From: Halomarina pelagica
GTDB lineage: Archaea > Halobacteriota > Halobacteria > Halobacteriales > Haloarculaceae
Length of the DNA: 64,000 bases
Reading direction: 5' to 3'
NCBI RefSeq assembly: GCF_024228315.1
Contig: NZ_CP100454.1
Location: forward strand, 558,001 to 622,000
In this document: positions 22,241 to 52,930 of the stretch, in pieces
Layout: the number at the start of each line of letters is the position of its first letter
How positions within the stretch are numbered: position 1 is the first letter of the stretch
Translations under genes and position numbers: made by a program
Notes under the pieces: generated by a model
Database searches by the model: none
Seen by the model: the letters and a program-made list of their open reading frames with translations, nothing else
What the model was told of the DNA's origin: nothing

Positions 22241-22283
22241 CGAGCGGGGGGACGGTCCCGCTCGCCCGCGTCAGCAGGAGAAC

Positions 22284-22607
22284 TTACCGCTCGTTTCGAT
22301 CCCCGGCGGTTCGTTTGACCGGGACGACGAACACCTGGACGATGTCGCCCTCGTCGATGTCGAGGGCCTCGCGCTCGGCGTCCGGGATGCTGAGCCGACC
22401 GCCGCTCTGGACGCGCGTCTTGAACAGCGCCATCTCGGTCCCCACCGACATCACGTCGGAGTACCAGTTGGTCGGCGAGGTCGCTTTCGTCGACAGCATC
22501 TGCTCGAACAGCCGCGTCTGCTGTTCGGTGAACTCCTCGCCGGCCTTCTGCATCTGCCTGGCGAAGAACGCCGGCGACCACGGTAGCTCGTCCTGTTCGT
22601 CCGTCAT
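22284..22607 (-). CDS. AbrB/SpoVT-domain protein with helical N-terminus
   Basis: 107 residues. The N-terminal 60 residues (WSPAFFARQMQKAGEEFTEQ) are amphipathic helices of phasin-like look, and the C-terminal 45 form an AbrB/SpoVT DNA-binding hairpin (VQSGGRLSIPDAEREALDID). The same architecture occurs in haloarchaeal proteins linked to polyhydroxyalkanoate granules, where an AbrB-domain regulator (PhaR of Haloferax mediterranei) is known. No PHA synthase is visible in this window, so a granule role is only a suggestion. It converges with lhr (43-nt gap). Confidence 0.8.
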   Translation of the reverse strand: MTDEQDELPWSPAFFARQMQKAGEEFTEQQTRLFEQMLSTKATSPTNWYSDVMSVGTEMALFKTRVQSGGRLSIPDAEREALDIDEGDIVQVFVVPVKRTAGDRNER

Positions 22608-22748
22608 CTCGACTCGTCCTTGACCCCTCGGGGAGAAGGCCCTTGCCCCACACCTCGATACAGACCGGGGTAGAACGTACCGGCGAGTCGTACCGTCGGG
22701 CGGTCGAGCGGCGGGCTCCCGGCGAGCGGGGCGGGACGGCGCGGTCGA

Positions 22749-33370: not shown

Positions 33371-34306
33371 TCAGAACAGCCCGCCGAACACCTTCGGCGC
33401 GGTCTTCCGGAGGATGTTCACCCCGATGACGAACAGCATCCCGACGACCGCGCGGTTGAACCACGTCTCGTCGACGCCGATTTGGCGCAGGTAGGTGCCG
33501 AGAAAGAGGCCGACGAGCGTGACGACCGAGATCGCACAGCCGAGCCACAGCAGCGGCGGCGTCAGCAGGCCGACGGCGATCGACTGCACGATCTTCACCG
33601 TGAACACGAAGGTGAACACCATCGACATCCCCCCGATGTAGCGGTCGCGGTCGCGCTCGAACGTGTGGAGGTAGGCGGGCAGGAGCGGTCCGAGGTTCGC
33701 CGCGCCGAGGAGAAACCCTTCCACCAATCCGACGCCGCCGAGCGCGACGGGGTGGTGGGCCTCCTCGACCACGACGAAGTTCCGGAGCACCTGGTAGGCC
33801 ACGTAGGCGAGTATCAGGAGCGCGATGAGCAGCGGGACGAGCGGTCCCGTCCGGAACTCGGCGAGGAACGTGACGCCGACGACGGTGCCGGCGACCGCGA
33901 GGCCGATCAGCGGCCACTCGCGGCGCACGTAGTCGAGGCCGGTGTTCGTCTCGCCCACCTGGAAGACGTTGATCATCCACGGCGGGATGGCGAGGACGAC
34001 GACGGCCACGACGGGGTCCACGTCGATGACGGAGGCGAGCACCGGCGTCGCGATGAGTGCGTAGCCGAAGCCGATGGCACCCTTGACCGCCCCCGCGACG
34101 ATCGCGACGAGGAAGACGAGCGCGAGCGTCCCGGTCGTCACGTCCGCCGACAGCGTCGACGTGATCCGGTCCGCGCCGGGGTAGAGGACGACCGTCCCCG
34201 CGATGACGGCCGCCGTCGCGAGCGTCATCAGGACCTCGCGGTAGTGCAGCGAGCGCAGGTTCTCGAGGAACGATGCGGGATCGACGGTAGCGGAGTGGTT
34301 AGCCAT
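33371..34306 (-). CDS. TauE/SafE-family sulfite/organosulfonate exporter
   Basis: 311 residues with about eight hydrophobic segments in two repeated halves. The second segment GAVKGAIGFGYALIATPVLA and the matching one VEGFLLGAANLGPLLPAYL are the internal repeats of the TauE/SafE family (PF01925). Members export small anions such as sulfite or sulfoacetate; the substrate is not determined here. Its promoter would lie in 34307-34367 and the left copy of the 31-nt repeat sits 62 nt upstream of its start, so the repeat insertion may have altered its control. Confidence 0.86.
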   Translation of the reverse strand: MANHSATVDPASFLENLRSLHYREVLMTLATAAVIAGTVVLYPGADRITSTLSADVTTGTLALVFLVAIVAGAVKGAIGFGYALIATPVLASVIDVDPVVAVVVLAIPPWMINVFQVGETNTGLDYVRREWPLIGLAVAGTVVGVTFLAEFRTGPLVPLLIALLILAYVAYQVLRNFVVVEEAHHPVALGGVGLVEGFLLGAANLGPLLPAYLHTFERDRDRYIGGMSMVFTFVFTVKIVQSIAVGLLTPPLLWLGCAISVVTLVGLFLGTYLRQIGVDETWFNRAVVGMLFVIGVNILRKTAPKVFGGLF

Positions 34307-34367: not shown

Positions 34368-34398
34368 CGGTAACGATGGCCGAGAGCTGTGACGCGGC
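34368..34398. repeat. 31-nt perfect direct repeat, left copy (flanks regulator-P450 cassette)
   Basis: Identical to 36698-36728; similarity continues rightward for about 12 further positions with scattered, mostly third-codon-position differences. The plus strand reads ATGGCCGAGAGCTGTGACGC within both copies (MAESCDAAS-A/G-DA). It lies 31 nt beyond the stop of the bat-type regulator. Confidence 0.9.
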
Positions 34399-34429
34399 TT
34401 CGGCCGACGCTGATTCGCCGCCGTGGCGT

Positions 34430-35089
34430 TCACCGTACGACGCGGGAGAGTATCGCCGACTCCGCCTTCCGGAGGTGGTTCGAGGCCGTACTCGCGGCGC
34501 ACCCGAGTTCGGCGGCCACGTCCGCAAGCGACGCGTGCCGCGGGACGGCGTAGTAACCCAGTTCGACCGCCGTCTCGACCGCCTCGTACTGCCGATCGGT
34601 CAACGGACCGGCGATCCTGGCGTGTCGCCGGTCGTACTCGCCGACCTCCTCGATCGTGACCTCGATCTCGCCGGGGATGTTCTCCACGAGCGTCCCGAGA
34701 TCGCCCTCCTGCCCGATGACGGTAAGCCGCATCGCGGCCTGCTCGTCGTAGACGATGGGGGGGACGACGACCAACTCCAGATCGCCGAACGCGCGTCGGA
34801 ACGAGACGTCCTCCTCGCGTGTCTCCTGACAGGCGAAGACGTACAGCGATTCGTCGTCGATTAGACCGATCCGGTGCCACCGGACCGATTCGACGCGCTC
34901 GATCGCCTCCCGGTACCGCTCGACGTCGGTCACCTCGACGTAGAACAGTTCGTACTCGATCGGTTCGCCCGGCTGCAGGTTCCAAGTCAACAGTTCCTCG
35001 TACCGGACGACGTCCTCGTAGCGGATGAACCGCTGCATCGGGTGCAACATCCAGTCGGGTTGGCGCAGGTAGAGGTCGCAGTACTTCAC
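34430..35089 (-). CDS. Bat-type HTH_10 transcriptional regulator
   Basis: 219 residues starting GTG (VKYCDLYLRQPDWMLHPMQRF). The N-terminal 150 residues form the beta-rich ligand-binding-like domain of haloarchaeal regulators related to bacterio-opsin activator; the C-terminal 60 are HTH_10 (LTDRQYEAVETAVELGYYAV, then SLADVAAELGCAASTASNHL). A further in-frame start at 35113 (TTG) is less likely. It is divergent from the P450 gene with 122 nt shared, so regulation of P450 by this protein is the simplest idea. Its 3' end borders the left direct repeat. Confidence 0.9.
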   Translation of the reverse strand: MKYCDLYLRQPDWMLHPMQRFIRYEDVVRYEELLTWNLQPGEPIEYELFYVEVTDVERYREAIERVESVRWHRIGLIDDESLYVFACQETREEDVSFRRAFGDLELVVVPPIVYDEQAAMRLTVIGQEGDLGTLVENIPGEIEVTIEEVGEYDRRHARIAGPLTDRQYEAVETAVELGYYAVPRHASLADVAAELGCAASTASNHLRKAESAILSRVVR

Positions 35090-35139
35090 GGTCGAATCCC
35101 CGGCACGCAACAACGTACCGACGTGTCCGATCAGACGAA

Positions 35140-35163
35140 GCTAGCGAACATAAAGGCGCTAGC
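35140..35163. promoter_or_regulatory. Inverted repeat around TATA-like element in regulator/P450 gap
   Basis: gctagc occurs at 35140-35145 and 35158-35163, an inverted pair enclosing cataaag (about 35150-35156). This is a plausible operator-promoter unit for the P450 (ATG at 35212) and/or the divergent regulator, with the regulator as the natural ligand. Confidence 0.4.
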
Positions 35164-35211
35164 CACGCCGACTGAATTCGTTTCTCGACTCGGTACGTAC
35201 CCCCGAGTGTC

Positions 35212-36597
35212 ATGACCGCTACGACCGAGGAGGCGTCCGCCACGGACGACTCGACGGAGGAGGCGGAGCTACCGCCGGGACCGGACGGCTGGCCGCTGCT
35301 GGGCAACACCCTGCAACTCGCCAGGGATCCGGTCGGGTTCTTCGATCGGATGGCGTCCTACGGCGACGTCGTCCGGTACGAGGTCGGCGGGCTACCGTTC
35401 ACGATGGTGTTACATCCGGCGTACGTCGAGCGGTTGCTGGTGACCGACTCGGACTCGGTCCGGAAGTTCCGGTTCGAGGAGTTCGGCGGCAACGAGTTCG
35501 CTCCCGACGGTGTGCTGTTCACCGAGGGCGAGCAGTGGCGCGCCCAGCGGACCGTGCTTCAGAACGCGTTCACGCTCGACCGGATCGAACGCTACGGGGG
35601 GACGATGGTCGACGTGGCCGCCGACCACGCCGCACGGTGGGGGGACGGGGAGGAACTCGCGGTCAACCGGCAGTTCTCCGACCTCACGGTGGACGTCCTC
35701 GCCCGGACGCTGTTCGATCTCGACGTCGACGGCCGGGGCGAGGCGATCACGTCGGTCGCCCGGGCGATCAACGAGCGGGGGGATCCGCGGACGCTCTCTA
35801 ACTTCTTCCTCCCGTCGTGGGTGCCGACGCCGAGCCAGCGCCGCTACGACCGCGCCATGGCCGCGTTCGAGGACATCGTCGACGAACTGATCGAGGAACG
35901 CCGGCGCGTCGGCGACCTCGAGGAGCGCGACGACCTGCTCTCGCTGCTGCTCGCCGCGGAGGAGCCGGACGGCTACCGCCACTCCGAGGGGGAACTGCGG
36001 GATCAACTGCTAACGTTCCTGTTCGCGGGCCACGAGACCACCTCGCTCACGCTCGCGTACACGACCCTCCTGTTGACGCGTCACCCCGACGTCCTCGAAC
36101 GCCTCCACGAGGAGTGGGACGAGGTCCTCGGCGACGACGATCCCTCGCCGACCGACGTCCCCGATCTGAACCTCACGGATCGCGTCCTCACGGAGTCACT
36201 GCGGCTGTACCCGCCGGCGTTCGCCGTCTTCCGCACCGCCGTCGAGGACATCGAGATCGGGGGGTACCTGATCCCCGAGGGAACGAACGTCACGCTCCCC
36301 CAGATCCGACTGCACCGGGACCCACGGTTCTACGACGACCCGGCGGCGTTCCGCCCGAATCGGTGGACCGGGGGCGTCGAGGCGGAACTGCCGGACTACG
36401 CGTACTTCCCGTTCGGCGGCGGACCCCGCCACTGCATCGGGATGCGGTTCGCCACGATGGAGTTGAAGCTCGTTCTCCCGACGCTGCTCCGGCGCGTCGA
36501 ATTCGAATTGCTGTCCGACCCCGATCCCGAACTGTCGCCCGGCGCGACGCTCCGACCCGCCGACGACGTACGGATGCGGGTCCGAGTCCGCGAGTAG
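35212..36597 (+). CDS. Cytochrome P450
   Basis: 461 residues, full length. I-helix oxygen-activation motif FAGHETTSL (about 270), K-helix ExxR in LTESLRLYPP (about 330), and heme loop FPFGGGPRHCIGMRF with the axial Cys (about 410) are intact. There is no N-terminal membrane anchor; the first 20 residues are acidic and followed by LPPGPDGWPLLGN, so the enzyme is soluble. It resembles CYP102/CYP4-like archaeal P450s by the PPGP and AGHETT patterns. Redox partners are not encoded nearby. Substrate unknown. It is flanked by a perfect direct repeat and paired with a divergent regulator, consistent with acquisition as a unit. Confidence 0.95.
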   Translation: MTATTEEASATDDSTEEAELPPGPDGWPLLGNTLQLARDPVGFFDRMASYGDVVRYEVGGLPFTMVLHPAYVERLLVTDSDSVRKFRFEEFGGNEFAPDGVLFTEGEQWRAQRTVLQNAFTLDRIERYGGTMVDVAADHAARWGDGEELAVNRQFSDLTVDVLARTLFDLDVDGRGEAITSVARAINERGDPRTLSNFFLPSWVPTPSQRRYDRAMAAFEDIVDELIEERRRVGDLEERDDLLSLLLAAEEPDGYRHSEGELRDQLLTFLFAGHETTSLTLAYTTLLLTRHPDVLERLHEEWDEVLGDDDPSPTDVPDLNLTDRVLTESLRLYPPAFAVFRTAVEDIEIGGYLIPEGTNVTLPQIRLHRDPRFYDDPAAFRPNRWTGGVEAELPDYAYFPFGGGPRHCIGMRFATMELKLVLPTLLRRVEFELLSDPDPELSPGATLRPADDVRMRVRVRE

Positions 36598-36697
36598 AAC
36601 GGTCGTCGCGCGACGATCCGCTGCCGGTTCCGCCCCGAGTGCCGGGATACGCGCGACGGTCGACGCGAGAACCCCGGTGGAGGGATCCGTCGACAAG

Positions 36698-36728
36698 CGG
36701 TAACGATGGCCGAGAGCTGTGACGCGGC
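36698..36728. repeat. 31-nt perfect direct repeat, right copy
   Basis: Second copy of 34368-34398, 2.33 kb to the right. It ends 1 nt before the stop codon (minus strand) of the zincin-like gene, and the extended similarity overlaps that gene's last codons. Confidence 0.9.
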
Positions 36729-36729
36729 G

Positions 36730-37683
36730 TCAGGCGACGCGGGTGAGCCACCGCGTCGGGTTACGCAGTTCGTCGTCGGTCGGGAGGTTCTCGGGGCGCT
36801 CCCAGACGAGGTTCGCGGTTCGGAGATCGCGGGCGTCGACGACGGCCTCGAAGAAGTCCTTGCCGCGCTCGTACTGGCGGCGCTTGCGCCCCAGGCCGAG
36901 CAGTCGGCGGATCAGCTGGGCGATCGGCCCCCCGCCGCGACGGCGGGCGTCGAGCTTCCGCCGGAGGTCCTCGTACTCCTCGTCGAAGGTCCGGTCCATC
37001 AGGAGTTCGGCGTACCCCTCCACGGCGGTCATCGTGGTGTCGATGGCGAGGAAGTCGTCGCGGTTGAAGCGCGCGGCCGAGAGGTCCCGGAGCGTCGTCT
37101 CGATGAGGTCCTCAAGGTGGTCGGTGAGCCACGGCGCGGCCCCGAACTCGGCGGCGTGGGAGACCTCGTGGAAGGCGATCCACCGGCGGAAGCGGTCCTC
37201 GTCGGCGTCGAGCTGGCGGGAGACGCGCCGGATGTTCGGGTGGACGAAGTACAGCGAGTGGTCGTTCGCCGCCCCCGGGGAGAGCAGCCGCGGGTCGTAC
37301 TGCCCGAGGACGTTGTTCGCGAGGAAGCCGACGGCGAAGGCCATCGATCCCGTGTTGAGCGACCGCGCGATCCCGGGCATGAGCCCCACCTCGGGTTCGA
37401 GCAGGTCGAGGATGCGCTCGAAGGTGACGACGTTCGCGTCGATCCAGTGGTGGCGGTTCTGGATCTCGACCGTCTCCGGGAGGTCGAAGTCGACGCCCGC
37501 GACCGACCTGATTTGATCGCGCGCCGCCCGGACGTCCGCGGCGTACGCCCGCTCGTCGGCGGGCGTGAGATCGAGCGTCCCCGGCGCGGTGACCGCCTTC
37601 GCGGCGTCGCCGACCGCGACCCAGTCGACGGGCCCCTCACCGGATGCGTCCGTCACCGCCCGGACCGCGCGATAGAAATTCAT
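36730..37683 (-). CDS. Zincin-like metalloprotease-family protein (F420-associated, DUF2342-like)
   Basis: 317 residues. The metal-binding helix HEVSHAAEF (about residue 172) keeps HExxH, and a downstream Glu in AVEGYAELLMDRTF is the probable third ligand, giving a zincin site. Homologues are known as coenzyme F420 biosynthesis-associated or DUF2342 zinc-dependent proteins; proteolysis has not been shown for them. The protein is soluble with no signal peptide. The end of the gene is inside the extended similarity of the right direct repeat, so its last codons may have been altered by the recombination. Confidence 0.85.
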   Translation of the reverse strand: MNFYRAVRAVTDASGEGPVDWVAVGDAAKAVTAPGTLDLTPADERAYAADVRAARDQIRSVAGVDFDLPETVEIQNRHHWIDANVVTFERILDLLEPEVGLMPGIARSLNTGSMAFAVGFLANNVLGQYDPRLLSPGAANDHSLYFVHPNIRRVSRQLDADEDRFRRWIAFHEVSHAAEFGAAPWLTDHLEDLIETTLRDLSAARFNRDDFLAIDTTMTAVEGYAELLMDRTFDEEYEDLRRKLDARRRGGGPIAQLIRRLLGLGRKRRQYERGKDFFEAVVDARDLRTANLVWERPENLPTDDELRNPTRWLTRVA

Positions 37684-38298: not shown

Positions 38299-39360
38299 AT
38301 GGACGGACCGCAGCGCGAGTTCCTCGACGACCTCCTCTCGACGCACAGCCCCGCGGGGTTCGAGTCGCCCGCGCTCCGCGCGTGGGTGGACTACGTCTCC
38401 GAGTTCGCCGACGACGTGAGCGTCGACGCCTACGGGAACGCCGTCGCCACCTGCGAGGGCGGTAGCGAGAGCGACCGATCGATCGCCTTCGGCGGCCACG
38501 CCGACGAGATCGGTCTGATGATACGGGACATCGACGACGACGGCTTCCTCGCGCTGACGCGCGTCGGCGGGGCCGACAGGACCGTCGTGCGCGGCCAGCA
38601 CGTCGTCGTTCACGCCGACGAGCCGATCCCGGGCGTCGTGGGGGGGACGGCGATCCACCTGCGCGACCGCGACGACGACGCGGTCCCCGAGATCCGCGAG
38701 AGCTACGTCGACATCGGCGTCGGCTCGCGGGAGGAAGCGGAGGAACTCGTCGAGGTGGGCGATCCGATCACGATCGTCGGGCGCGTCGAGGCGTTGCAGG
38801 GGACGCGCCTCGCGGCGCGCGGGATGGACAACCGCGTCGGGATCTGGGCGGCGGCCGAGGGGTTGCGCCGGGCCGCGGCGCGCGACGCCGAGGTCACCGT
38901 CCACGCCGTCGCCACGGTGCAGGAGGAACTCGGCGCGAACGGCGCGCGCATGGTCGGCTTCGACCTCGCGCCGGACGCGTTCGTCGCGGTGGACGTCACC
39001 CACGCGACCGACGCGCCGAAGACGCCCTCGGAGAGAGTGTCGACCGTGAAGCTCGGCGAGGGACCGGTCGTCGTCCGCGGCAGCGCGAACCACCCGGGGC
39101 TCGTGGCGGGCGTCCGCTCGGTCGCGGCGGCGGAGGGGATCGACGTGCAGCTGGAGGCGGCGGGGAGTGCCACCGGCACGGACGCCGACGCCGTCTTCGT
39201 CTCGCGCGGCGGGATCCCCTCGGCGAACGTCGGGCTGCCCAACCGCTACATGCACACGCCCGTCGAGGTGATCGACACCGACGACCTCGACGCGCTCGCG
39301 GAACTGCTCGGCGCGGTCGGCGCGAGCGCGGCGGGGTTCGACCTGACGGCCGGGCTCTGA
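38299..39360 (+). CDS. M42-family metallo-aminopeptidase
   Basis: 353 residues. Metal ligands: His in FGGHADEIGLMI (about 67), bridging Asp in RGMDNRVGIWA, catalytic Glu pair in TVQEELGANGA, Asp in VDVTHATDAP and His in NRYMHTPVEVI. This is the full di-zinc set of M42 (tetrahedral aminopeptidase/endoglucanase M) enzymes, dodecameric cytoplasmic peptidases that trim peptides from proteasome digestion. Nothing truncated. It is divergent from the small membrane protein upstream. Confidence 0.93.
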   Translation: MDGPQREFLDDLLSTHSPAGFESPALRAWVDYVSEFADDVSVDAYGNAVATCEGGSESDRSIAFGGHADEIGLMIRDIDDDGFLALTRVGGADRTVVRGQHVVVHADEPIPGVVGGTAIHLRDRDDDAVPEIRESYVDIGVGSREEAEELVEVGDPITIVGRVEALQGTRLAARGMDNRVGIWAAAEGLRRAAARDAEVTVHAVATVQEELGANGARMVGFDLAPDAFVAVDVTHATDAPKTPSERVSTVKLGEGPVVVRGSANHPGLVAGVRSVAAAEGIDVQLEAAGSATGTDADAVFVSRGGIPSANVGLPNRYMHTPVEVIDTDDLDALAELLGAVGASAAGFDLTAGL

Positions 39361-39439
39361 CCGGCATCGTGCTCCCCAAAACGACCCTACACTGGTAGGT
39401 GCAAGCGTTTTCGAACCTGTACAGAGACGTACCGGTTAC

Positions 39440-40591
39440 ATGGCAGACAATCACAAACGCGAAACCGACGTCGGGCGTTCCGCTGCGGCGTCGCTCACCC
39501 GCCGCGGGTTCGTCGCCGCGGGGACGGCGGCGGGCGCGGGCCTCCTCGCGGGGTGTACGGGCGGGGGGGACGGATCGGGGAACGGACAGCCGTCGGGTGG
39601 TAACGATTCCTCGGGGGACGGCGGTGGCGACGGTGGCGGCGGTGGGGGCGGGGGGTCGTTCTCGGCGGAAGTGACGGTCACCCACTGGCCGATCCTGCTG
39701 TACGCGCCGCCGTACCAGATGGCGATGGAGAACGGGTACTTCGAGGAGGAGGGACTCGAGATCACGAGCGTCGTCGGCTCCAGCGGCGGGGGGACGACCG
39801 TCAGAAACGTCGTCACCGGCGGTCTCCCGTTCGGCGAGGTGGCGACGCCGGCCGCGGTCAAGGCGTACTACGCCGGCGCGCCGCTGAAGATCGTCGCGGG
39901 GACGACGAACACGCCGGGGACGATCAACTGGGTCGCACCGAAGGGGTCCGACGTGACGTCGATCGCCGACCTGAAGGGGAAGACCGTCGGGTTCACCAGC
40001 GCGGGATCGGTCACGCAGAACACCTCGGCGCTCGCGGTGAAGTACGCCGAGGGGATCGACCCCGACGAGGTCGAGTTCAAGGCGATGGGGGGTGTCAGCG
40101 AGGGGTTGACGGCCGTGAGCGAAGGTTCGATCGCGGCGGCCGCGAACCTCGATCCGATCTTCTCCAAGCAACAGCAGGAGGACAGCTGGCAGGTCGTCTT
40201 CTGGGCGAAGGACTACATCTCGACGTTCCAGCAGACCTGCGTCATCGCGGGACCGGACATCATGGAGGAACGTCCCGACGCGATCCGGGGGTTCCTCAGG
40301 GCGCGAGCGCGCGGCGTCGAGTTCATCAGGGAGAACCCGAAGGAGGCGGCCGAGATCTTCGCCTCCTACAACGACGGCTACGACGTATCGGTGATGCGGA
40401 AGTCGTTCGAGAACGTCGAGCCGGAGAACTACTACACGACCAACGAGTTCAGCGTCGAGGGGTTACAGCGCATCGAGGAGGGCATGCGGAACATCGGCCT
40501 CATCGACCGGGAAGTCGAGTGGACGAAGATCGCAACCCAGGAGTTCCTGCCCGAGGAGAAACGCGTCGACCTCTCGAAGGCCGAAGGATGA
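39440..40591 (+). CDS. ABC transporter substrate-binding lipoprotein (NitT/TauT/SsuA-like)
   Basis: 383 residues. Tat-type signal with twin Arg (LTRRGFVAAGTAAG) and lipobox AGC (GLLAGCTGG), a glycine/serine-rich linker (about 37-75), then the NMT1/THI5-like binding fold (VTHWPILLYAPPYQMAMENG, EEGLEITSVVGSSGGGT). Membrane-anchored binding proteins of this family deliver nitrate, taurine, sulfonates, or pyrimidine/hydantoin-like compounds. It is the first gene of a four-gene operon; the ATPase start overlaps its stop (ATGA). The operon converges with hyuAB and an amidohydrolase, suggesting a hydantoin- or ureide-type ligand. Confidence 0.92.
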   Translation: MADNHKRETDVGRSAAASLTRRGFVAAGTAAGAGLLAGCTGGGDGSGNGQPSGGNDSSGDGGGDGGGGGGGGSFSAEVTVTHWPILLYAPPYQMAMENGYFEEEGLEITSVVGSSGGGTTVRNVVTGGLPFGEVATPAAVKAYYAGAPLKIVAGTTNTPGTINWVAPKGSDVTSIADLKGKTVGFTSAGSVTQNTSALAVKYAEGIDPDEVEFKAMGGVSEGLTAVSEGSIAAAANLDPIFSKQQQEDSWQVVFWAKDYISTFQQTCVIAGPDIMEERPDAIRGFLRARARGVEFIRENPKEAAEIFASYNDGYDVSVMRKSFENVEPENYYTTNEFSVEGLQRIEEGMRNIGLIDREVEWTKIATQEFLPEEKRVDLSKAEG

Positions 40592-41388
40592 CGCTCGAAG
40601 TCGACGCCGTGACGAAGACCTACGGACTGGGAGACGAACGGACGAGCACCATCACCGCGCTCGACGGCATCGATCTCACGGTCGCCGAGGGGGAGTTCGT
40701 CTCGATCATCGGGCCGACCGGTTGCGGCAAGAGCACGCTGTTCGAGATCATCGGCGGCCTCGTCGAACCGACCGACGGCGAGGTCCGACTCCAGGGCGAT
40801 CCGATCGCCGGTCCCGACCCGCGGATCGGGATGGTGTTTCAGGACCACAGCACGTTCCCGTGGCTCTCCGTGCGAGAGAACGTCGAGTTCGGACTCCGGA
40901 TGAACGGCGTCGCGAAGTCCGAGTACCGAGCGCGCGCCGAGGAGATGCTCGACCTCGTGGGCCTGTCCGGGTTCGAGGACGCCCGCCCCGGCGAACTCTC
41001 CGGCGGAATGAACCAGCGCGTCGCCATCGCCCGGACCCTGGTGATGGGACCGGAACTCATCCTCATGGACGAACCGTTCGGCGCGCTCGACGAACAGACC
41101 CGCCTCATCCTCGGCGGGGAGTTGCTTCGCATCTGGCGCGAGACCGGCGCGACCATCCTCTTCGTCACGCACAACATCAACGAGGCCGTCCAGCTCTCGG
41201 ACCGGATCGCGGTGATGAGCGCTCGCCCCGGCCGGTTCAAGACGGTCGTCGAAAACGCCCTCCCGCGGCCCCGGGACGACGACGCGATGGGAACGGAGGC
41301 GTTCAACGAGATCGTCCGGAAACTCTGGGGTGAGCTGAAGGAGGAGAGCCGACGCGGGATGGAACAGACGGCTCGCGTCGAGGGGTGA
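40588..41388 (+). CDS. ABC transporter ATP-binding protein (NitT/TauT/SsuB-like)
   Basis: 266 residues. Walker A GPTGCGKST, Q-loop FQDHST, signature LSGGMNQR, Walker B LILMDEPFGALD and switch His in FVTHNINEA are complete. The start at 40588 overlaps the binding-protein stop by 4 nt. Powers import through the two permeases encoded downstream. Nucleotide-binding subunit at the inner membrane face. Confidence 0.96.
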   Translation: MTLEVDAVTKTYGLGDERTSTITALDGIDLTVAEGEFVSIIGPTGCGKSTLFEIIGGLVEPTDGEVRLQGDPIAGPDPRIGMVFQDHSTFPWLSVRENVEFGLRMNGVAKSEYRARAEEMLDLVGLSGFEDARPGELSGGMNQRVAIARTLVMGPELILMDEPFGALDEQTRLILGGELLRIWRETGATILFVTHNINEAVQLSDRIAVMSARPGRFKTVVENALPRPRDDDAMGTEAFNEIVRKLWGELKEESRRGMEQTARVEG

Positions 41389-41392
41389 GTAG

Positions 41393-42190
41393 ATGAGCAC
41401 CGTATCCACGCGCCTCCCTGTCGTCGGGGGACTGACGCGCGGTCAGCGCGTCAGGGTGGCGCAGACGCTCCTCGTCGGCTCGCTCCTCGCGACCGTCGAG
41501 TTCGCGCCTCGCCTCGGGCTGATCGGCCCGACGACGCTCATCCCCCTCTCGGAGATGGTCGGCGAACTCGTTCGACTGCTCGTCTCGGGCGAGTTGACCC
41601 CGCACATCGTCCAGACGTTCTCGGCGGTGTTCGGCGCGTTCGCGCTCGCGGCCGTCACCGGCCTCCCGGCCGGCGTGGTCCTCTGGCGCGTCGATCGCCT
41701 CAAGCGGGTGCTCGATCCCTACCTGCTGATCTATTACGCGGTCCCGTTCTTCGCGTTCTATCCCCTGCTCATCTCCGTGATGGGACTCGGCATCCTCCCG
41801 ATTCTCACCATCGCCTGGGGGTTCAGCGTCGTCATCATGGTGACGAACACGGCCTCTGGACTGGCCGAGATCCCGGAGGTGTACGTGCAGGCGGGCCGCG
41901 ACATGAACCTCACCGACTGGCAACTGCTCAGATACGTCTACCTGCCGGCGTCGGTGCCGTACGTGTTCACCGGGCTGAAGCTCGGGTTCATCTACGCGCT
42001 GATCGGGACGATCGCGAGCGAGTTTATCCTCGCCGAGAGCGGACTCGGGTGGCTCATCTCCTACGACTACAACAACTTCGACGTTCGGGGGATGTACGCC
42101 GCGATGCTGCTGGTCGTCCTGCTCGCGCTGGCCGTGAACGCGACGCTGACCGCCGTCGAGCGCCGCCTCTACCGGAGGGTTCGGCGATGA
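41393..42190 (+). CDS. ABC transporter permease 1 (BPD_transp_1)
   Basis: 265 residues with about six hydrophobic helices. The EAA-like cytoplasmic loop is QAGRDMNLTDWQLLRYVYLP (about 165-184), which contacts the ATPase. Four-nt gap after the ATPase stop, 4-nt overlap with the second permease (ATGA), so cotranslated. Together the two permeases make a heterodimeric channel, rather than the homodimer usual for SsuC/TauC. Confidence 0.92.
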   Translation: MSTVSTRLPVVGGLTRGQRVRVAQTLLVGSLLATVEFAPRLGLIGPTTLIPLSEMVGELVRLLVSGELTPHIVQTFSAVFGAFALAAVTGLPAGVVLWRVDRLKRVLDPYLLIYYAVPFFAFYPLLISVMGLGILPILTIAWGFSVVIMVTNTASGLAEIPEVYVQAGRDMNLTDWQLLRYVYLPASVPYVFTGLKLGFIYALIGTIASEFILAESGLGWLISYDYNNFDVRGMYAAMLLVVLLALAVNATLTAVERRLYRRVRR

Positions 42191-42981
42191 GCGTCGGGTT
42201 CGATCCCCGGCGACTTCCGCTCGACGGCGTGACCGTCGGGCGGCTCGCGGTCCCGATCGCCCTCCTGCTGCTCTGGCAGGTGCTGGCGATGACGACGAGC
42301 GGGTTCGCGCTGGCGACGCCCGCCGAGTCCGTCGCGGCGCTCCTCGATGGGTTGCGCCGCGGCTGGCTCCTCGACGGCTTCCGCCGGACGATGGCCGAAC
42401 TGCTCGCGGCGTACGCCCTCGCGGTCGTCACGGGCGTCTGGGTCGGCGTCGCCCTCGGGCTCGACGACTTCTGGGCGGACGTGTTCGAGCCGCTCCTGCT
42501 CGGCACCTACTCCATCCCGAAGGTGACGCTGTTTCCCGTCTTCCTGTTCGTCTTTCAGCTCGGCATGGACTCGAAGATCGCCTTCGGCTGGTTCCACGGC
42601 GTCTTTCCGATCGCCATCCTCACGCTGAGCGCGATGGCGACCGTCCGCGACGAGCACCTGAAGGTCGCGCGTTCGCTCGGCCTCTCGCGCTGGCAGACGT
42701 TCCGCGAGGTGATCGTCCCCTCGATCCTCCCCGGCCTGGTCATCGGTCTCCGGCTGGGGTTCAACCTCACCTTCCTCGGGGTGATCCTCGGCGAGATGTT
42801 CGCCGCGCGCGCGGGGCTGGGCTACGAACTCGTCGAGTACATCGTCGGACTGCAGGTCGATCGCATGCTCGCGATCATCCTCGTGCTCGTGCTCGTCGCC
42901 ACCGCCGTCAACCTCGGCTTCTTCGCGCTAGAGGGACGGCTCGCCGACGGTGGCGGGGAACGCGCCGACGTCCGGCTCTGA
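42187..42981 (+). CDS. ABC transporter permease 2 (BPD_transp_1)
   Basis: 264 residues with about six hydrophobic helices; the EAA-like loop is KVARSLGLSRWQTFREVIVP. It overlaps the first permease by 4 nt. It is the last gene of the importer operon; its stop lies 26 nt from the converging end of the amidohydrolase gene, leaving no room for another gene. Confidence 0.92.
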   Translation: MSVGFDPRRLPLDGVTVGRLAVPIALLLLWQVLAMTTSGFALATPAESVAALLDGLRRGWLLDGFRRTMAELLAAYALAVVTGVWVGVALGLDDFWADVFEPLLLGTYSIPKVTLFPVFLFVFQLGMDSKIAFGWFHGVFPIAILTLSAMATVRDEHLKVARSLGLSRWQTFREVIVPSILPGLVIGLRLGFNLTFLGVILGEMFAARAGLGYELVEYIVGLQVDRMLAIILVLVLVATAVNLGFFALEGRLADGGGERADVRL

Positions 42982-43007
42982 CCGGTTCTCCCCTCTCGCT
43001 CCCGCTC

Positions 43008-43655
43008 TCACTCTCGACCGAGTGTCTCCAGTTCCGCCAGCACCTCGTCGGTCGTCACCACGTCGCCGTACTTCGCGGCGATGTCGAACAGGTTCGCGCG
43101 GTGTGGTCCCTCCGCCCGGTCGCCGACCGCGTCGCGCGGAACGATCGTCCGGTAGCCGTGCTGGAGGCTGTCGACGGCGGTCGCCCGGACGCAGCCGCTG
43201 GTCGTGACGCCCGCGACGACCAGCGTGTCGACCCCGTCGGTCGTCAGCTCCGTCGAGAGGTCGGTGCCGAAGAAGGCGCTCGCGTACTTCTTCAGGATCA
43301 CGCGCTCGCCCTCCCGCGGCGCGATGCGCTCGTCCACGCGGACCGCGTCGGTGCCGAGTCGGAGTTCGCGCAGCGCGGGGACCTTCTCGACGAACACCCC
43401 CGCGTCGCCGTAGGACTCCTCGTAGGCGACCGTCGTGAAGTATCGCGGCAGGTCGCGCTCGCGGAACGCCGCGAGGAGGCGACGGGTCGACTCGACCACC
43501 GAGTCGACGTTCGATCCGAGGTTCGTCTCGGGGTCCGTGAACGCCTCGATGAGGTCGACGACGACGAGCGCGGGGCGGTCGCCGAAGCCCACGTCGCGGC
43601 CGAACGCCCGGCGGTCGTAGACGGCCCGGGTCTCTGCGTCCGGTGCGTCCTCCAT
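43008..43655 (-). CDS. Isochorismatase-like amidohydrolase (N-carbamoylsarcosine amidase-like)
   Basis: 215 residues. Catalytic triad Asp in LVVVDLIEAFTD (about 33), Lys in RVILKKYASAFFGT (about 121), Cys in VTTSGCVRATAVD (about 156) with the cis-peptide preceding it. Family members hydrolyse isochorismate, nicotinamide, ureido or N-carbamoyl groups. The 4-nt gap after hyuB places it in the hydantoinase operon, and the N-carbamoylsarcosine amidase subgroup is the best match to that context. It would release CO2 and ammonia from an N-carbamoyl amino acid. Confidence 0.85.
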   Translation of the reverse strand: MEDAPDAETRAVYDRRAFGRDVGFGDRPALVVVDLIEAFTDPETNLGSNVDSVVESTRRLLAAFRERDLPRYFTTVAYEESYGDAGVFVEKVPALRELRLGTDAVRVDERIAPREGERVILKKYASAFFGTDLSTELTTDGVDTLVVAGVTTSGCVRATAVDSLQHGYRTIVPRDAVGDRAEGPHRANLFDIAAKYGDVVTTDEVLAELETLGRE

Positions 43656-47637: not shown

Positions 47638-47647
47638 GTTTATAAAC
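47638..47647 (-). promoter_or_regulatory. TATA-like palindrome of the hyu promoter
   Basis: gtttataaac is perfectly palindromic and 65-75 nt before the hyuA start. It can serve the minus-strand operon; no plus-strand gene lies close downstream for it. Confidence 0.5.
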
Positions 47648-47966
47648 CGACGGCGGCACCGACCGCCGGATCGCGTACGGCGGGGCATCCGTCACGACGC
47701 CGGGTCATCGAACGGCGCGGAAGTGTCGAACGAATGACTGCACTCGGTGGCCGTATTCTCGATCCGGGACTATCTGGCAGGAACTTTATACGACGAGTCG
47801 CCACACCTCCCGGAAGTAGATCGTAGCCGTCGGCCGCCCGTCAGAAACCGTCCCGCCACGACCACCGATATTTTAAATATTTCTGATTTGAATGAAACAA
47901 TATATTCCCTCGTTGAACGTCTCTAATCACAGAATAACAATCGTGCTGGGGTTTCATCCGTCATCC
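47648..47966. other. Gene-free region with AT-rich promoter island
   Basis: About 320 bases of non-coding sequence. A TATA-like ctttatacg is at about 47781-47789, and 47868-47915 is exceptionally AT-rich for this genome (ttttaaatat, aatatatt), giving the likely promoter of the deacetylase gene. No ORF in this stretch looks genuine. Confidence 0.55.
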
Positions 47967-49037
47967 GTGACCGAAAACGAAGTTGAACCGACGAGTGTGG
48001 ACGACGACATACGCCCGAGCTGGGGCGGGTGGTCGCCCCGACGGGCGTTCGCGTGGACGCTCGTCGCGGGACTCCTGGTCGCCACGCTGGCCGGATTCGC
48101 TATCGGCGGGCGGACGCCGGAGGCGGCGGGACTGTTCGGGGCGGAGGGTGGCGACGACGGCGCGCCGGTCGAACGGGACGGCTCGACCGGCCACGCGGCG
48201 GCGACCTGGAACGAGTACGACGCCGTCGTCGTGTTCCGGAACGACGACATACAGCCGTACTACCGACGGGAGACGATGCGCGCCGTCGACGAGATCTTCG
48301 TCGAGGAGGACGTTCCCGTCACGCTGGGTGTGATTCCGACGACGGCCGACGGGGAGCCGATCACCCGGAGCCCGCTCTGTTCGTACCTCCGCGAGAACGA
48401 GCGCGCACACCCGGAACTCTTCGAGGTCGCGCTCCACGGGTACACGCACGAACGCCGGACGGGGTTCCACGGCGGCAGCGAGTTCGGGGGGCTCGACCCG
48501 GCCCGGCAGCGCGACCTCGTCGCGCGCGGGACCGAGACGCTGACCGACTGCGTCGGCGAGCGACCGACGACGTTCGTCCCGCCGATGGACACCTACGACG
48601 AGGGGACCGTCGAGGCGCTGGCGGCGGCGAACTACGCCGTCGTCTCCGGCGGCGGCTGGTTCGCCGCGGAGTACTACGGCGAGACGGACGCGTTCGAGCG
48701 CGGCGGTCTGCTCCACGTCCCGAACGACGGCGGGTTCGTCGCCGACTGGACGGCGAACGAGTTCCACGACGCCGCGACCCTCGAACGGCGATTCGACCGC
48801 GCGGTCGAGGACGGGGTGTACGTCCAGATGCTCCACTACCAGGACTTCACCACGCCCGAGCGCCGCGAGCGGCTCCGCGCGTTCATCCGGTACGTGAAGG
48901 ACTCGGGCGACGTCCGGTTCATGACGCTCGGCGAACTCGGCGAGCGCGTCGAGAACGGGACGCTCCGCCGCACCGACGGGGGGTGGGAGGTGTACGAGCG
49001 CGAGGGGGCGGCCGGGCCGTCAGCGCGCTCGTCGTGA
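47967..49037 (+). CDS. Membrane-anchored DUF2334-type polysaccharide deacetylase
   Basis: 356 residues from GTG 47967. A short cytoplasmic N-terminus is followed by an Arg-rich stop and one helix (about 25-45, FAWTLVAGLLVATLAGFAIG), then an extracytoplasmic catalytic domain. Metal ligands: the NDD in VVVFRNDDIQPYY and His pair in VALHGYTHERRTG; further conserved FVPPMDTYDE. DUF2334 is a distant carbohydrate-esterase/polysaccharide deacetylase family. An in-frame ATG at 47892 would extend it through AT-rich promoter-like sequence, hence GTG is preferred. It lies head-to-tail with the convergent GT2 gene (22-nt gap), and is likely part of an exopolysaccharide locus. Confidence 0.82.
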   Translation: MTENEVEPTSVDDDIRPSWGGWSPRRAFAWTLVAGLLVATLAGFAIGGRTPEAAGLFGAEGGDDGAPVERDGSTGHAAATWNEYDAVVVFRNDDIQPYYRRETMRAVDEIFVEEDVPVTLGVIPTTADGEPITRSPLCSYLRENERAHPELFEVALHGYTHERRTGFHGGSEFGGLDPARQRDLVARGTETLTDCVGERPTTFVPPMDTYDEGTVEALAAANYAVVSGGGWFAAEYYGETDAFERGGLLHVPNDGGFVADWTANEFHDAATLERRFDRAVEDGVYVQMLHYQDFTTPERRERLRAFIRYVKDSGDVRFMTLGELGERVENGTLRRTDGGWEVYEREGAAGPSARSS

Positions 49038-49059
49038 CGGTCGGTAGATCGACTGCCGA

Positions 49060-50802
49060 TCAGTGCCGCGATCCGCCCCCCGAAGCGTCGCCGTCGGGGG
49101 ACGCGCGATCCGCCGTCGCCTCCTGCGCCCAGCGGCTGACGCTCGCCCACCGGCGGTCCGCGTTCCGGAGGACGTCGAGGACGCTCATCGCGATGACGCC
49201 CGCCTGGAACAGCGGGTACACGGTGACCAGCGGGACGAAGTACGGTACGAGCCTGACGCTCTCTCCCGTCAGACGGAGCGCGAGCACCGACAGCAGGCAG
49301 CCGAGGAACAGGAAGTACGCCAGCATCCCCGCGACCGCGGCGGCGTGGCCGCTGGCGAGGCTGACGCCGACCGCCGCGAGCACCGCGACGCTCACGAACG
49401 GGACCAGCAGCAGCGTGAGGAGGTAGAACGGGAAGACGAGTCGGTGGAGGTAGCGCGTCCCGTCGCCGAAGAACACGTCGCGGTGTTTGAGGAGGACCTC
49501 GACGTTTCCGCGGTTCCAGCGGAGTCGCTGGCGGTAGAGATCCCTCCATGAGTAGGGTGCTTCGGTCCATACCGTCCCTGGGGTCTGTCTGACGTCCCAC
49601 CCCGCCTTCAACACCTTGACCGTGACGTCGAAGTCCTCGGTGAGCGTGTCGCCGTCGTACCCCCCGGCGTCCGCGAGGGCCTCGCGGCGGAACGCGCCGA
49701 GACAGCCGGGGACCACCGGAACCGCGCCGAAGACGTCGAAGGCCCGCCGGAACGTGTTGATACCGAGGACGTACTCCAGCGTCTGGAGGCGGGTGACGCC
49801 GTCGCGTCGATTGCGCACCCTCACGTCGCTCGCGAGCCCCCCTGTCTCGGGGGCGGCCTGGAACGTCCCGACGACGTTCGACAACGCGTCCGGTTCGACG
49901 AAACTGTCGGCGTCGACGATGACGACGACGTCGCCGGTCGTCCGTTCGAGCCCGTCGTTCAGCGCCTCGTGTTTCCCGCCGTTCGGCTTGCTGTGGACGG
50001 TCACGCCGGGACCGGCGCGGCGCACGGCCTCCTCGTACGTCCCGTCGGTGCTCCCGTCGTCGACGACGAGCACCTCGCGGCGCTCCTCGGGGTAGTCGGA
50101 GGCGAGGACGTGGTCGATACAGCGCCCGACGTACCCCTCCTCGTTGTACGCGGGAACGATGACGCTCACCGTCGGGTACGGTTCGACGGGGGGCGGGGCC
50201 TCGTCCGTCCCGTTCCGCTGGTAGATCGCCAGCGGAACGACGAACCAGACGTAGAGGAAGAACACCGCGAACGCCGCGAAGAACACGGCCCCCGTCGGTG
50301 ACCCCGTCCGAACGAACCCCCACGCCACGCAGCCGGTCGCGCCGAGGCCGACGACCAGCGTCCAGGCGGGGAGCCGGTAGCGCGACCGACCGACCGATCC
50401 GCGCCGACTCGAGAGCGCCGTGGTCACCAGAATCGAGATCGAGACGCCGAGCACCCCCGTCCAGACGGCCGTGTCGTAGGCCAGTTGTCCGATACGGTAG
50501 AGGGCCAACGAGAGCGCCGAGACGACGCCGACCGAGAGCAAGAGCCAGACCGGCGTCGTACACCGTCGGCCGAACAGGCGGTCGAACGCGGCGACCCAAC
50601 GCCGCGAGGCGAGCAACACGGACCCGACCGCGGCGACGACGACGCCACAACCCAGCAAGAGCCACGACGGGAGGAGGTACCCGCCGACGACCAACGACCC
50701 GACGCCGAGCGCGACGCCCGTCAGGACTCCGGAGAGGCGTCCACCGGGAACTGCGGTCGTAACCGCCGAGAGCGTCCCCCCCGTTTCTCCGCTACCCGCC
50801 AT
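49060..50802 (-). CDS. Processive glycosyltransferase family 2 (PgaC/cellulose-synthase-like)
   Basis: 580 residues. Several N-terminal hydrophobic helices (about 25-185), then a GT2 catalytic domain with SVIVPAYNEEGYVGRCIDHV, VDDGSTDG, the metal-binding DADSF, TEDFDVTVK and the processivity motif QRLRWNRGN, then C-terminal helices (about 430-530). These motifs define membrane-bound polymer synthases such as poly-N-acetylglucosamine or hyaluronan synthases. The neighbouring deacetylase makes a deacetylated polymer of amino sugars the best guess. The start at 50802 is the ATG giving the shortest leader before the first helix. Confidence 0.9.
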   Translation of the reverse strand: MAGSGETGGTLSAVTTAVPGGRLSGVLTGVALGVGSLVVGGYLLPSWLLLGCGVVVAAVGSVLLASRRWVAAFDRLFGRRCTTPVWLLLSVGVVSALSLALYRIGQLAYDTAVWTGVLGVSISILVTTALSSRRGSVGRSRYRLPAWTLVVGLGATGCVAWGFVRTGSPTGAVFFAAFAVFFLYVWFVVPLAIYQRNGTDEAPPPVEPYPTVSVIVPAYNEEGYVGRCIDHVLASDYPEERREVLVVDDGSTDGTYEEAVRRAGPGVTVHSKPNGGKHEALNDGLERTTGDVVVIVDADSFVEPDALSNVVGTFQAAPETGGLASDVRVRNRRDGVTRLQTLEYVLGINTFRRAFDVFGAVPVVPGCLGAFRREALADAGGYDGDTLTEDFDVTVKVLKAGWDVRQTPGTVWTEAPYSWRDLYRQRLRWNRGNVEVLLKHRDVFFGDGTRYLHRLVFPFYLLTLLLVPFVSVAVLAAVGVSLASGHAAAVAGMLAYFLFLGCLLSVLALRLTGESVRLVPYFVPLVTVYPLFQAGVIAMSVLDVLRNADRRWASVSRWAQEATADRASPDGDASGGGSRH

Positions 50803-51053
50803 TCGCACCCGCCTCGCGGCTCGCTAGCTCCAGAGATTCACGCATCATTCCACGTTCGAACGCGTCGGTACCACCCGCCTTTGTTATTCGAATACTGACT
50901 GCTCGATAATCGCACATATTTCCGCGAACGCCGGTCGTGCAGCGATCTAACGCGCCGTTATTTCCGCGTAACGGCCCGTTTTCGGCCGTTCCGTCGTTCG
51001 CGGCGGGGGTATCACGGACATAACAATCCCGCAGAGCGTGGTACCGTCTCCGC
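50803..51053. promoter_or_regulatory. Divergent AT-rich promoter region of GT2 and GH26
   Basis: 251 nt between divergent starts, AT-rich for the genome. aacggcc/ggccgtt (50970-50976 with 50984-50990) and cgtta/taacg (50956-50960 with 50969-50973) form overlapping hairpins. acataacaat at about 51018-51027 is TATA-like and 26-35 nt before the GH26 GTG. Confidence 0.45.
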
Positions 51054-52253
51054 GTGAACAGACGGACACTCCTCGGACTCGGCGGCGGCGCGCTCGGCAC
51101 CGTGCTGGGCGGCACTCGGCTCTACGCCGCGATGAACGATCGTACAACGGATGCACGGAGCGACGGTTCGGGCGCGGCTTCGTCGACGCCGCCGTCCGAC
51201 ACGCCGTCGGAGAACTCCGGGGAGGACGCGCCCGACGCCCACCGGTTCGAAACCCGCGACGGGAACGTCCTCCTCGGCGTCTCCCCGGAGACGGTTGCCT
51301 CCGTCCCGCTGTCGGCGCTCGAACGGTGGCAGGGGCGGCGCAACGCCGCGATCGGCGCGTTCGTCGACGTCGGTGTCCCCGACGAACGGCGGCGGGACGT
51401 CGTCGACGGCCTGTTGACCCCGATCTGGGAGCGCGGGAGCGTCCCTCACGTCGTCTGGCAGCCGTACGTCGGGGCGCACGAGGCGACGCCGCCGACGATC
51501 GCCCGGGACATCGCCGCGGGTCGCCACGACCGGACGTTCGAACGGTGGGCGGACGCGCTCGACCGCTGGCTCCGACCGGACGGCGCGCCCGACCGCAGGC
51601 TCTATCTCAACTTCGCGCCGGAGATGAACGGCGACTGGGTGCCCTGGGACGCCTCGGACGGCGAGACGACGCCGTCCGACTACGTCGAGATGTGGCGCAG
51701 GGTCCGCGACGTCGTGGAGGGAACGGGAGTCGGCGACGACCACGTCCAGTGGGTCTGGGCCGTGAACCACGTCGGGCGCACGGCCCACCCCATCGAGGCG
51801 TTCTACCCGGGCGACGACTACGCCGACTGGTGCGGGGTCCACGGCTACAACTGGGCGCGCTGGGGCGGGTGGAAGTCGCCCGCGGAACTCTACGACGACG
51901 CCCTCGACGCCGTCGCCTCGTTCACCGACAACCCGACGGTCCTCTCGGAGTACGGCTGTTCGTCCGCGGTCGACGGTGGCCACGACCCCGCGAGGAAGGG
52001 CGAGTGGATCCGCGAGGCGTTCGACTACGTCGAGAAGCGGGACGTCCGGATGGCGCTCTGGTTCAACTACGACAAGGAGACCGACTGGGCGGTGTTCGGT
52101 GGGTCGCGAGGGACGGAGGTGTTCGACCACGACGGGGAGACGTACAACGCCTACGAGGAGTACCGGAGGGCGGTCAACCGCGAGGGGGTCCTGCCGGCGT
52201 ACGCCGGCCACCCGCGGCGACTGACCGACGAGGAGTTCCGGGGGGAGTTCTGA
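51054..52253 (+). CDS. Tat-exported GH26-like glycoside hydrolase
   Basis: 399 residues starting GTG. Signal peptide with twin Arg (NRRTLLGLGGGALGTVLG) fits Tat export; a Ser/Thr/acidic linker follows (about 30-65). The (beta/alpha)8 catalytic domain shows the acid/base Glu in FAPEMNGDW (about 190) and the nucleophile Glu in TVLSEYGCS (about 300), with WVWAVNHVG and GDDYADWCGVHGYNW as clan-A landmarks of GH26 beta-mannanase-like enzymes. It could trim or degrade the polymer made by the divergent GT2. Actual linkage specificity is not determined. Confidence 0.83.
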   Translation: MNRRTLLGLGGGALGTVLGGTRLYAAMNDRTTDARSDGSGAASSTPPSDTPSENSGEDAPDAHRFETRDGNVLLGVSPETVASVPLSALERWQGRRNAAIGAFVDVGVPDERRRDVVDGLLTPIWERGSVPHVVWQPYVGAHEATPPTIARDIAAGRHDRTFERWADALDRWLRPDGAPDRRLYLNFAPEMNGDWVPWDASDGETTPSDYVEMWRRVRDVVEGTGVGDDHVQWVWAVNHVGRTAHPIEAFYPGDDYADWCGVHGYNWARWGGWKSPAELYDDALDAVASFTDNPTVLSEYGCSSAVDGGHDPARKGEWIREAFDYVEKRDVRMALWFNYDKETDWAVFGGSRGTEVFDHDGETYNAYEEYRRAVNREGVLPAYAGHPRRLTDEEFRGEF

Positions 52254-52303
52254 GGTCGGGCGGCGAGGGCGCTCTCGTTCGCGGCCCCTGCCCACCTACC
52301 GGG

Positions 52304-52930
52304 CTACCACCGCGTCCGGCCGTCGCTCTCGTCGAGGAGTTGCGTGAGGAGGGTCGCCTCGGCCTTCCGAAGGTGTTCGAGGAACGTCGGTCGGCTGATG
52401 CCGAGGTCGGCGGCGAGTTCCTCGCTCGTGACCTCCCGGGGCCACCGGAAGTAGCCCGCCTCCAGCGCCGTCTCGATCACCTCGCGCTGGCGGGTCGTGA
52501 GCGACGAGGTCGCGCCGCCGAACTCCGTCAGCTGGCCGAGCGTGACCAGCCCGATCGAGCGGAACTCCTCGATGATCGCCTTCAGGTCCTCGCGGTTGAA
52601 GACGAGGACGTGGTAGACGCGCTGGCGCGGACCGATGCGGTTCACCCGACGGAGGACGCCGTGGTTCTTCGAGACGGCGGCGTACGCGCCACAGGAGTGC
52701 TTGGTGACCAGCAGCGCCTCGTCGTCGAGTCGGTCGAGGTGGTGGACGGCGTCGGCCGCCGCGAGGCGGTCGTACCACGAGTCGGCGCGCTCGCCCGCGT
52801 GCAGGACGAACGTGACGTTGTGGTCGTGCAGCTCCTCGATCTCGATGTCGAGCGGCGCGTCCACCTCGCGCGCGAGGTCGGTGAGGACGCACTCCTTCTC
52901 CTGCTGTAGGTGTAGTTCGGCCTGATACAC
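52304..52930 (-). CDS. Bat-type HTH_10 transcriptional regulator
   Basis: 208 residues starting GTG. N-terminal alpha/beta sensor-like domain (about 1-145) and C-terminal HTH_10 (LTTRQREVIETALEAGYFRW, SEELAADLGISRPTFLEHLR). It lies 108 nt downstream of the DRE-TIM enzyme on the same strand and converges with the GH26 gene, so it could regulate either the CoA-transferase pair or the polysaccharide locus. Two cysteines (HSCGAYAAVS and VLTD leader Cys) are present but no cofactor site is evident. Confidence 0.9.
   Translation of the reverse strand: MYQAELHLQQEKECVLTDLAREVDAPLDIEIEELHDHNVTFVLHAGERADSWYDRLAAADAVHHLDRLDDEALLVTKHSCGAYAAVSKNHGVLRRVNRIGPRQRVYHVLVFNREDLKAIIEEFRSIGLVTLGQLTEFGGATSSLTTRQREVIETALEAGYFRWPREVTSEELAADLGISRPTFLEHLRKAEATLLTQLLDESDGRTRW

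Follow-up and report, generated by a model that had tools for sequence, protein, structure and literature searches.

A foreign regulator-P450 gene pair inserted between two copies of a target spacer segment in Halomarina pelagica

Haloarchaea acquire genes horizontally at a high rate. In the Halomarina pelagica genome we have analysed a window of 64,000 nt (the whole stretch of DNA examined, to which coordinates refer unless stated otherwise), in which a unit of 2.3 kb carrying a regulator gene and a cytochrome P450 gene lies between two copies of a long direct repeat. The question raised by this locus is where the unit and the repeat have come from, and how the unit became joined to the chromosome.

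The repeat CGGTAACGATGGCCGAGAGCTGTGACGCGGC is an exact 31-nt direct repeat found at 34368–34398 and 36698–36728, with the copies 2330 nt apart. Similarity extends beyond this perfect part, with 40 of 43 nt identical (to 34410 at the left copy) and an 84% match over 61 nt (weak similarity at the left copy reaching 34428), in agreement with the first-pass annotation, which had reported 31 perfect nt within about 43 nt of similarity. This length exceeds chance, because in 842 kb of this genome the isolated exact direct repeats that reach 24 nt and are spaced 300–8000 nt apart number only four, and random pairs of 200-nt windows share words of at most 14 nt. When the repeat was searched for elsewhere, as had been proposed, this genome gave only the two copies, IMG/VR gave none, and no plasmid matched the flanks, and a dispersed element was therefore rejected.

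The left neighbour of the repeat is a TauE/SafE exporter gene (33371–34306, minus strand) and the right neighbour is a gene for a zincin-like peptidase (TIGR03883, DUF2342_F420; 36730–37683, minus strand). The earlier statement that the repeat overlaps the last codons of the zincin gene holds for the extended similarity, which runs to 36740 and covers the 3' end of this gene, and not for the perfect 31 nt, which stop just before the stop codon at 36730–36732 (minus strand). Since the spacer has been duplicated, the upstream region of TauE is kept intact by the left copy and the zincin 3' end by the right copy, so that the insertion was probably neutral for both genes.

The inserted unit itself (34399–36697, 2299 nt) contains, as initially described, exactly two genes, and both are complete: a Bat-type regulator (34430–35113, minus strand) with HVO_0513_N and HTH_10 domains and, in divergent arrangement, a full-length cytochrome P450 (35212–36597, plus strand) with the heme-ligand motif FGGGPRHCIG and AGHETT. 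Because the regulator terminus coincides with that of its relatives and the P450 is full length, the insert consists of entire genes and little else (31 nt past the regulator stop and 100 nt past the P450 stop). Relatives of the regulator align from about residue 9, and its true start may be a GTG near 35089. Neither a transposase nor a recombinase gene is present in the insert, the regulator and the P450 being its sole genes, and terminal inverted repeats were not recognised; among the 25 longest inverted-repeat pairs, none joins the insert ends. The divergent P450 is probably under the control of the regulator acquired with it. For comparison, deletion of CYP174A1 of Halobacterium salinarum alters pigment synthesis and bop expression (PMC6212597); both proteins are haloarchaeal P450s, and the likeness may be taken as a functional analogy only.

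The polarity of the event can be read from related genomes. An empty locus with one repeat copy, as predicted in the first-pass annotation, is present in the congeners G004 and G005. In G004, the flanks of this locus align at 93–94% on each side, with an overlap of 53 nt at one spot, which carries the single repeat copy; a DNA search of relatives matched the left junction region in G004 at 94% over 111 nt and matched the region also in G005, where (at about 82% identity) one copy with changes stands between zincin and TauE. In G001 and G006, too, these two genes adjoin and the unit is missing. We also looked for the opposite situation, in which all relatives keep the unit and no empty site exists, and G004 and G005 proved to be empty. 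The unit is not simply located elsewhere in G004, because the best P450 relative there is just 40% identical. With single-copy empty sites and adjacency in the relatives, an insertion in the Halomarina pelagica lineage is the simplest polarity, and the single-copy sites bear out the entry of a 2.3-kb unit at this site, which was inserted in the lineage of this genome. Most simply, on the assumption of a late insertion without loss, the unit was acquired once, after the split from the closest sequenced congener. The insertion is known from one genome, and it may also have preceded the split from G004 and then been cleanly lost there.

Two readings that dispense with this insertion can be weighed at this point. 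If the unit were ancestral and had been lost in relatives via recombination between the repeats, exactly the single-copy state of G004 would result, but several losses (in G001, G004, G005 and G006) would be required and the closest copies of the unit are those of other families, so that we consider this history very improbable. An assembly artefact at a 31-mer is hardly credible: k-mers of 31 nt are widely used and the reported contamination of this genome is 4.55%, but the assembly has 7 contigs, with the insert in the interior of one of 3.5 Mb, and both junctions run into diverged spacer-like sequence, which an artefact would not produce.

The next point is the origin of the repeat. It lies upstream of TauE, within the spacer that separates the zincin stop from the TauE start. 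A 26-position pattern constructed from the repeat and G001 matched the same spacer with 0 mismatches in G004 and G001 and with three in G005, whereas the remaining spacer is hard to align among congeners, so that the core is apparently constrained and perhaps belongs to the TauE promoter region. Judging from these sequence comparisons, the core is a genus-specific spacer element, which occurs in this genome only at this place (two copies) and in congeners in the same spacer. A family-wide promoter element was also considered and rejected, because the close matches to the pattern found in G113 and G117 sit at unrelated gene starts. The spacer of G004, near 4807–4859 of L051, also contains an imperfect palindrome, CGTCACAGC...GCTGTTGACG, which is partly kept in G001 and is possibly an operator of TauE.

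We have examined 20 other loci carrying the regulator-P450 pair, at a few of which (e.g., G372 and G423) the compared span is imperfect owing to a neighbouring second pair. The core is absent at all 20, and none of them has flanking exact repeats longer than 16 nt, words up to that length being the chance level when 2.5-kb flanks are compared. The repeat is thus not a part of the cassette; since its core is found in the spacer of congeners and is absent at these 20 loci, it derives from the target, and its second copy was formed at the time of the insertion. The recombination at a short homologous site that the first-pass annotation proposed is possible and is not favoured here, because no other locus with the unit matches the site, and for the same reason the simplest view is that the target supplied the second copy during insertion. 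The suggestion that the repeat derives from a coding 5' end (MAESCDAAS) had to be abandoned: the segment lies between genes in G004, G005 has CTG in place of the supposed ATG and 3 additional nt further along, and a search for a protein starting with MAESCDAAS in 146 genomes of the family gave no convincing relative.

The gene pair itself is ordinary and common. Divergent pairs of an HTH_10 (Bat-type) regulator and a P450 are found in many haloarchaeal genera with the same gene order, the same domains and full-length proteins; this copy differs from the other haloarchaeal pairs in its long flanking direct repeats, which are found only here. In DNA identity, the unit is closest to G212 and G240, which belong to other families (77%), followed by G096 (73%) and G095 (71%) from a different genus within the same family. 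In the trees of both proteins, the unit falls in the same strongly supported clade of seven members drawn from three families, and distant copies in the congeners G006 and G007 fall elsewhere; on the basis of these trees, the pair has been transferred horizontally as a unit and is horizontally mobile among haloarchaea. The P450 is nearest to that of G240 and the regulator to that of G212; a mosaic unit is not claimed, support inside the clade being low.

To place this insertion among other changes in the lineage, we compared this genome with G004 and surveyed every indel of 400 bp or more (42 in all); the matching part of G004 is collinear over about 320 kb (427–739 kb of contig 1), the alignment being sparse beyond. 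The longest word shared by the junctions was 31 nt at the regulator-P450 insert and at most 12 nt at the other indels, no more than random window pairs share. Eight indels are clean, the other genome retaining 30 nt or less, and among these a long overlap (53 nt of alignment) is found only here; one other overlaps by 8 nt. Only one of the 42 indels has a junction repeat that exceeds background, which links the repeat to this event and argues against a general junction-repeat mechanism in this lineage; such a mechanism was therefore rejected.

Several other features were also seen. A second clean insertion lies 3 kb from the first (39360–43028) and consists of an ABC transporter cluster (NMT1/SsuA-like binding protein, ATPase and permeases), which has about 9 nt in its place in G004 and is missing from G005. 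A third (47643–52304, 4.66 kb, with 4 nt left in G004) has open reading frames that look like polysaccharide deacetylase, glycosyltransferase and glycoside hydrolase, making three insertions in 18 kb, and about 0.5 kb near 22278–22746 stands against about 21.9 kb in G004. Elsewhere, an isolated perfect 28-nt direct repeat at G000:C1:140915 and 142864 (L180:915 and 2864) brackets phosphatase-like and RidA-like genes in a plastic region of lower GC that has no counterpart in G004 (this may be a similar event), and a permease gene is bracketed by the copies of another isolated direct repeat, of about 75 nt and with few mismatches, at G000:C1:360701 and 363635 (L191:701 and 3635), which resembles an insertion-sequence end.

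How could such an insertion duplicate its target? We favour, at somewhat better than even confidence, a single horizontal acquisition captured at a staggered, filled-in break with a target duplication of 31–44 nt. A double-strand break with long staggered ends would have occurred in the zincin-TauE spacer; the ends would have been filled in, so that 31–44 nt of spacer were copied and one copy was placed on each side; and a foreign fragment carrying the regulator-P450 pair would have been captured, closing the break and leaving each neighbour with its own side of the spacer. Insertion, empty site, target-derived repeat and foreign unit are seen in the genomes compared, and the chemistry of breaking and filling is what we infer from them. 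The right copy is identical to the single copy of G004 and the left copy differs from it at 4 of 44 nt; divergence from G004 at four-fold sites is about 0.13–0.25 (Jukes–Cantor), giving about 0.1 on this branch, so that the four changes are consistent with a 44-nt duplication decaying since an insertion soon after the split.

The distribution of these changes brings in another possibility. All four differences of the left copy lie outside the 31-nt core and cluster at the ends, and on each inner side weak similarity runs on beyond 44 nt (20 of 30 nt at one of them; anchored extension p of about 0.007 and about 0.03), a pattern for which a crossover in a segment of partial match is a somewhat better fit. 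In a Campbell-type integration, a circle with the pair and a diverged spacer copy, derived from an unsampled relative already bearing the insertion, would have recombined once within the 31 identical nt. Such single-crossover integrations resemble this locus in having direct repeats, an identical core and differing flanks, and the inner flanks here do retain some likeness to the outer ones; however, a core-bearing donor was found neither among the other pair loci nor among plasmids or in IMG/VR. Because a donor with the genus-specific core must itself stem from an insertion here, the first insertion would be left unexplained and a target duplication is needed at least once. We therefore regard this integration as possible and rather doubtful.

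The locus is also similar to target-site duplications of insertion sequences and transposons, in which a duplicated target surrounds the insert and a single copy is found at the empty site. Target duplications of most such elements are a few to about ten or so bp; in contrast, the duplication here is 31–44 nt, with no transposase and no recognised terminal inverted repeats, and so long a target duplication without a mobile-element gene is unusual. Integration in trans by a transposase or a site-specific recombinase that recognises the spacer palindrome would accord with the clean insertion between genes and with the palindrome at the empty site of G004; it is unlikely in view of the insert devoid of a recombinase gene and of recognised inverted repeats at its ends, the other pair loci lacking long flanking repeats, and the single case among the 42 indels. 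Still less likely, in our estimation, is a more specific form, in which the unit would be an enzyme-less mobile cassette moved by a host or viral recombinase recognising the palindrome upstream of TauE; if this were true, gene pairs could land between host genes with neither neighbour broken.

Capture at a filled-in break, the reading preferred here, has a partial counterpart in human cells, in which small tandem duplications arise by fill-in at broken ends (PMC8355091); the two are alike in the short duplication at the break, and they differ in that the study deals with human cells, the capture of foreign DNA of kilobase length in archaea not being its subject. In Haloferax volcanii, end joining proceeds by microhomology and not by Ku (PMC7776575). 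Neither this report nor the former one demonstrates the present outcome in archaea, and our literature search on long target duplications in archaea found no archaeal case of it. The joining step of gene transfer is rarely visible, and at this locus the sequences of both junctions and of the empty site are available; the insertion gives a concrete case for the question of whether foreign DNA may be captured at staggered breaks in archaea.
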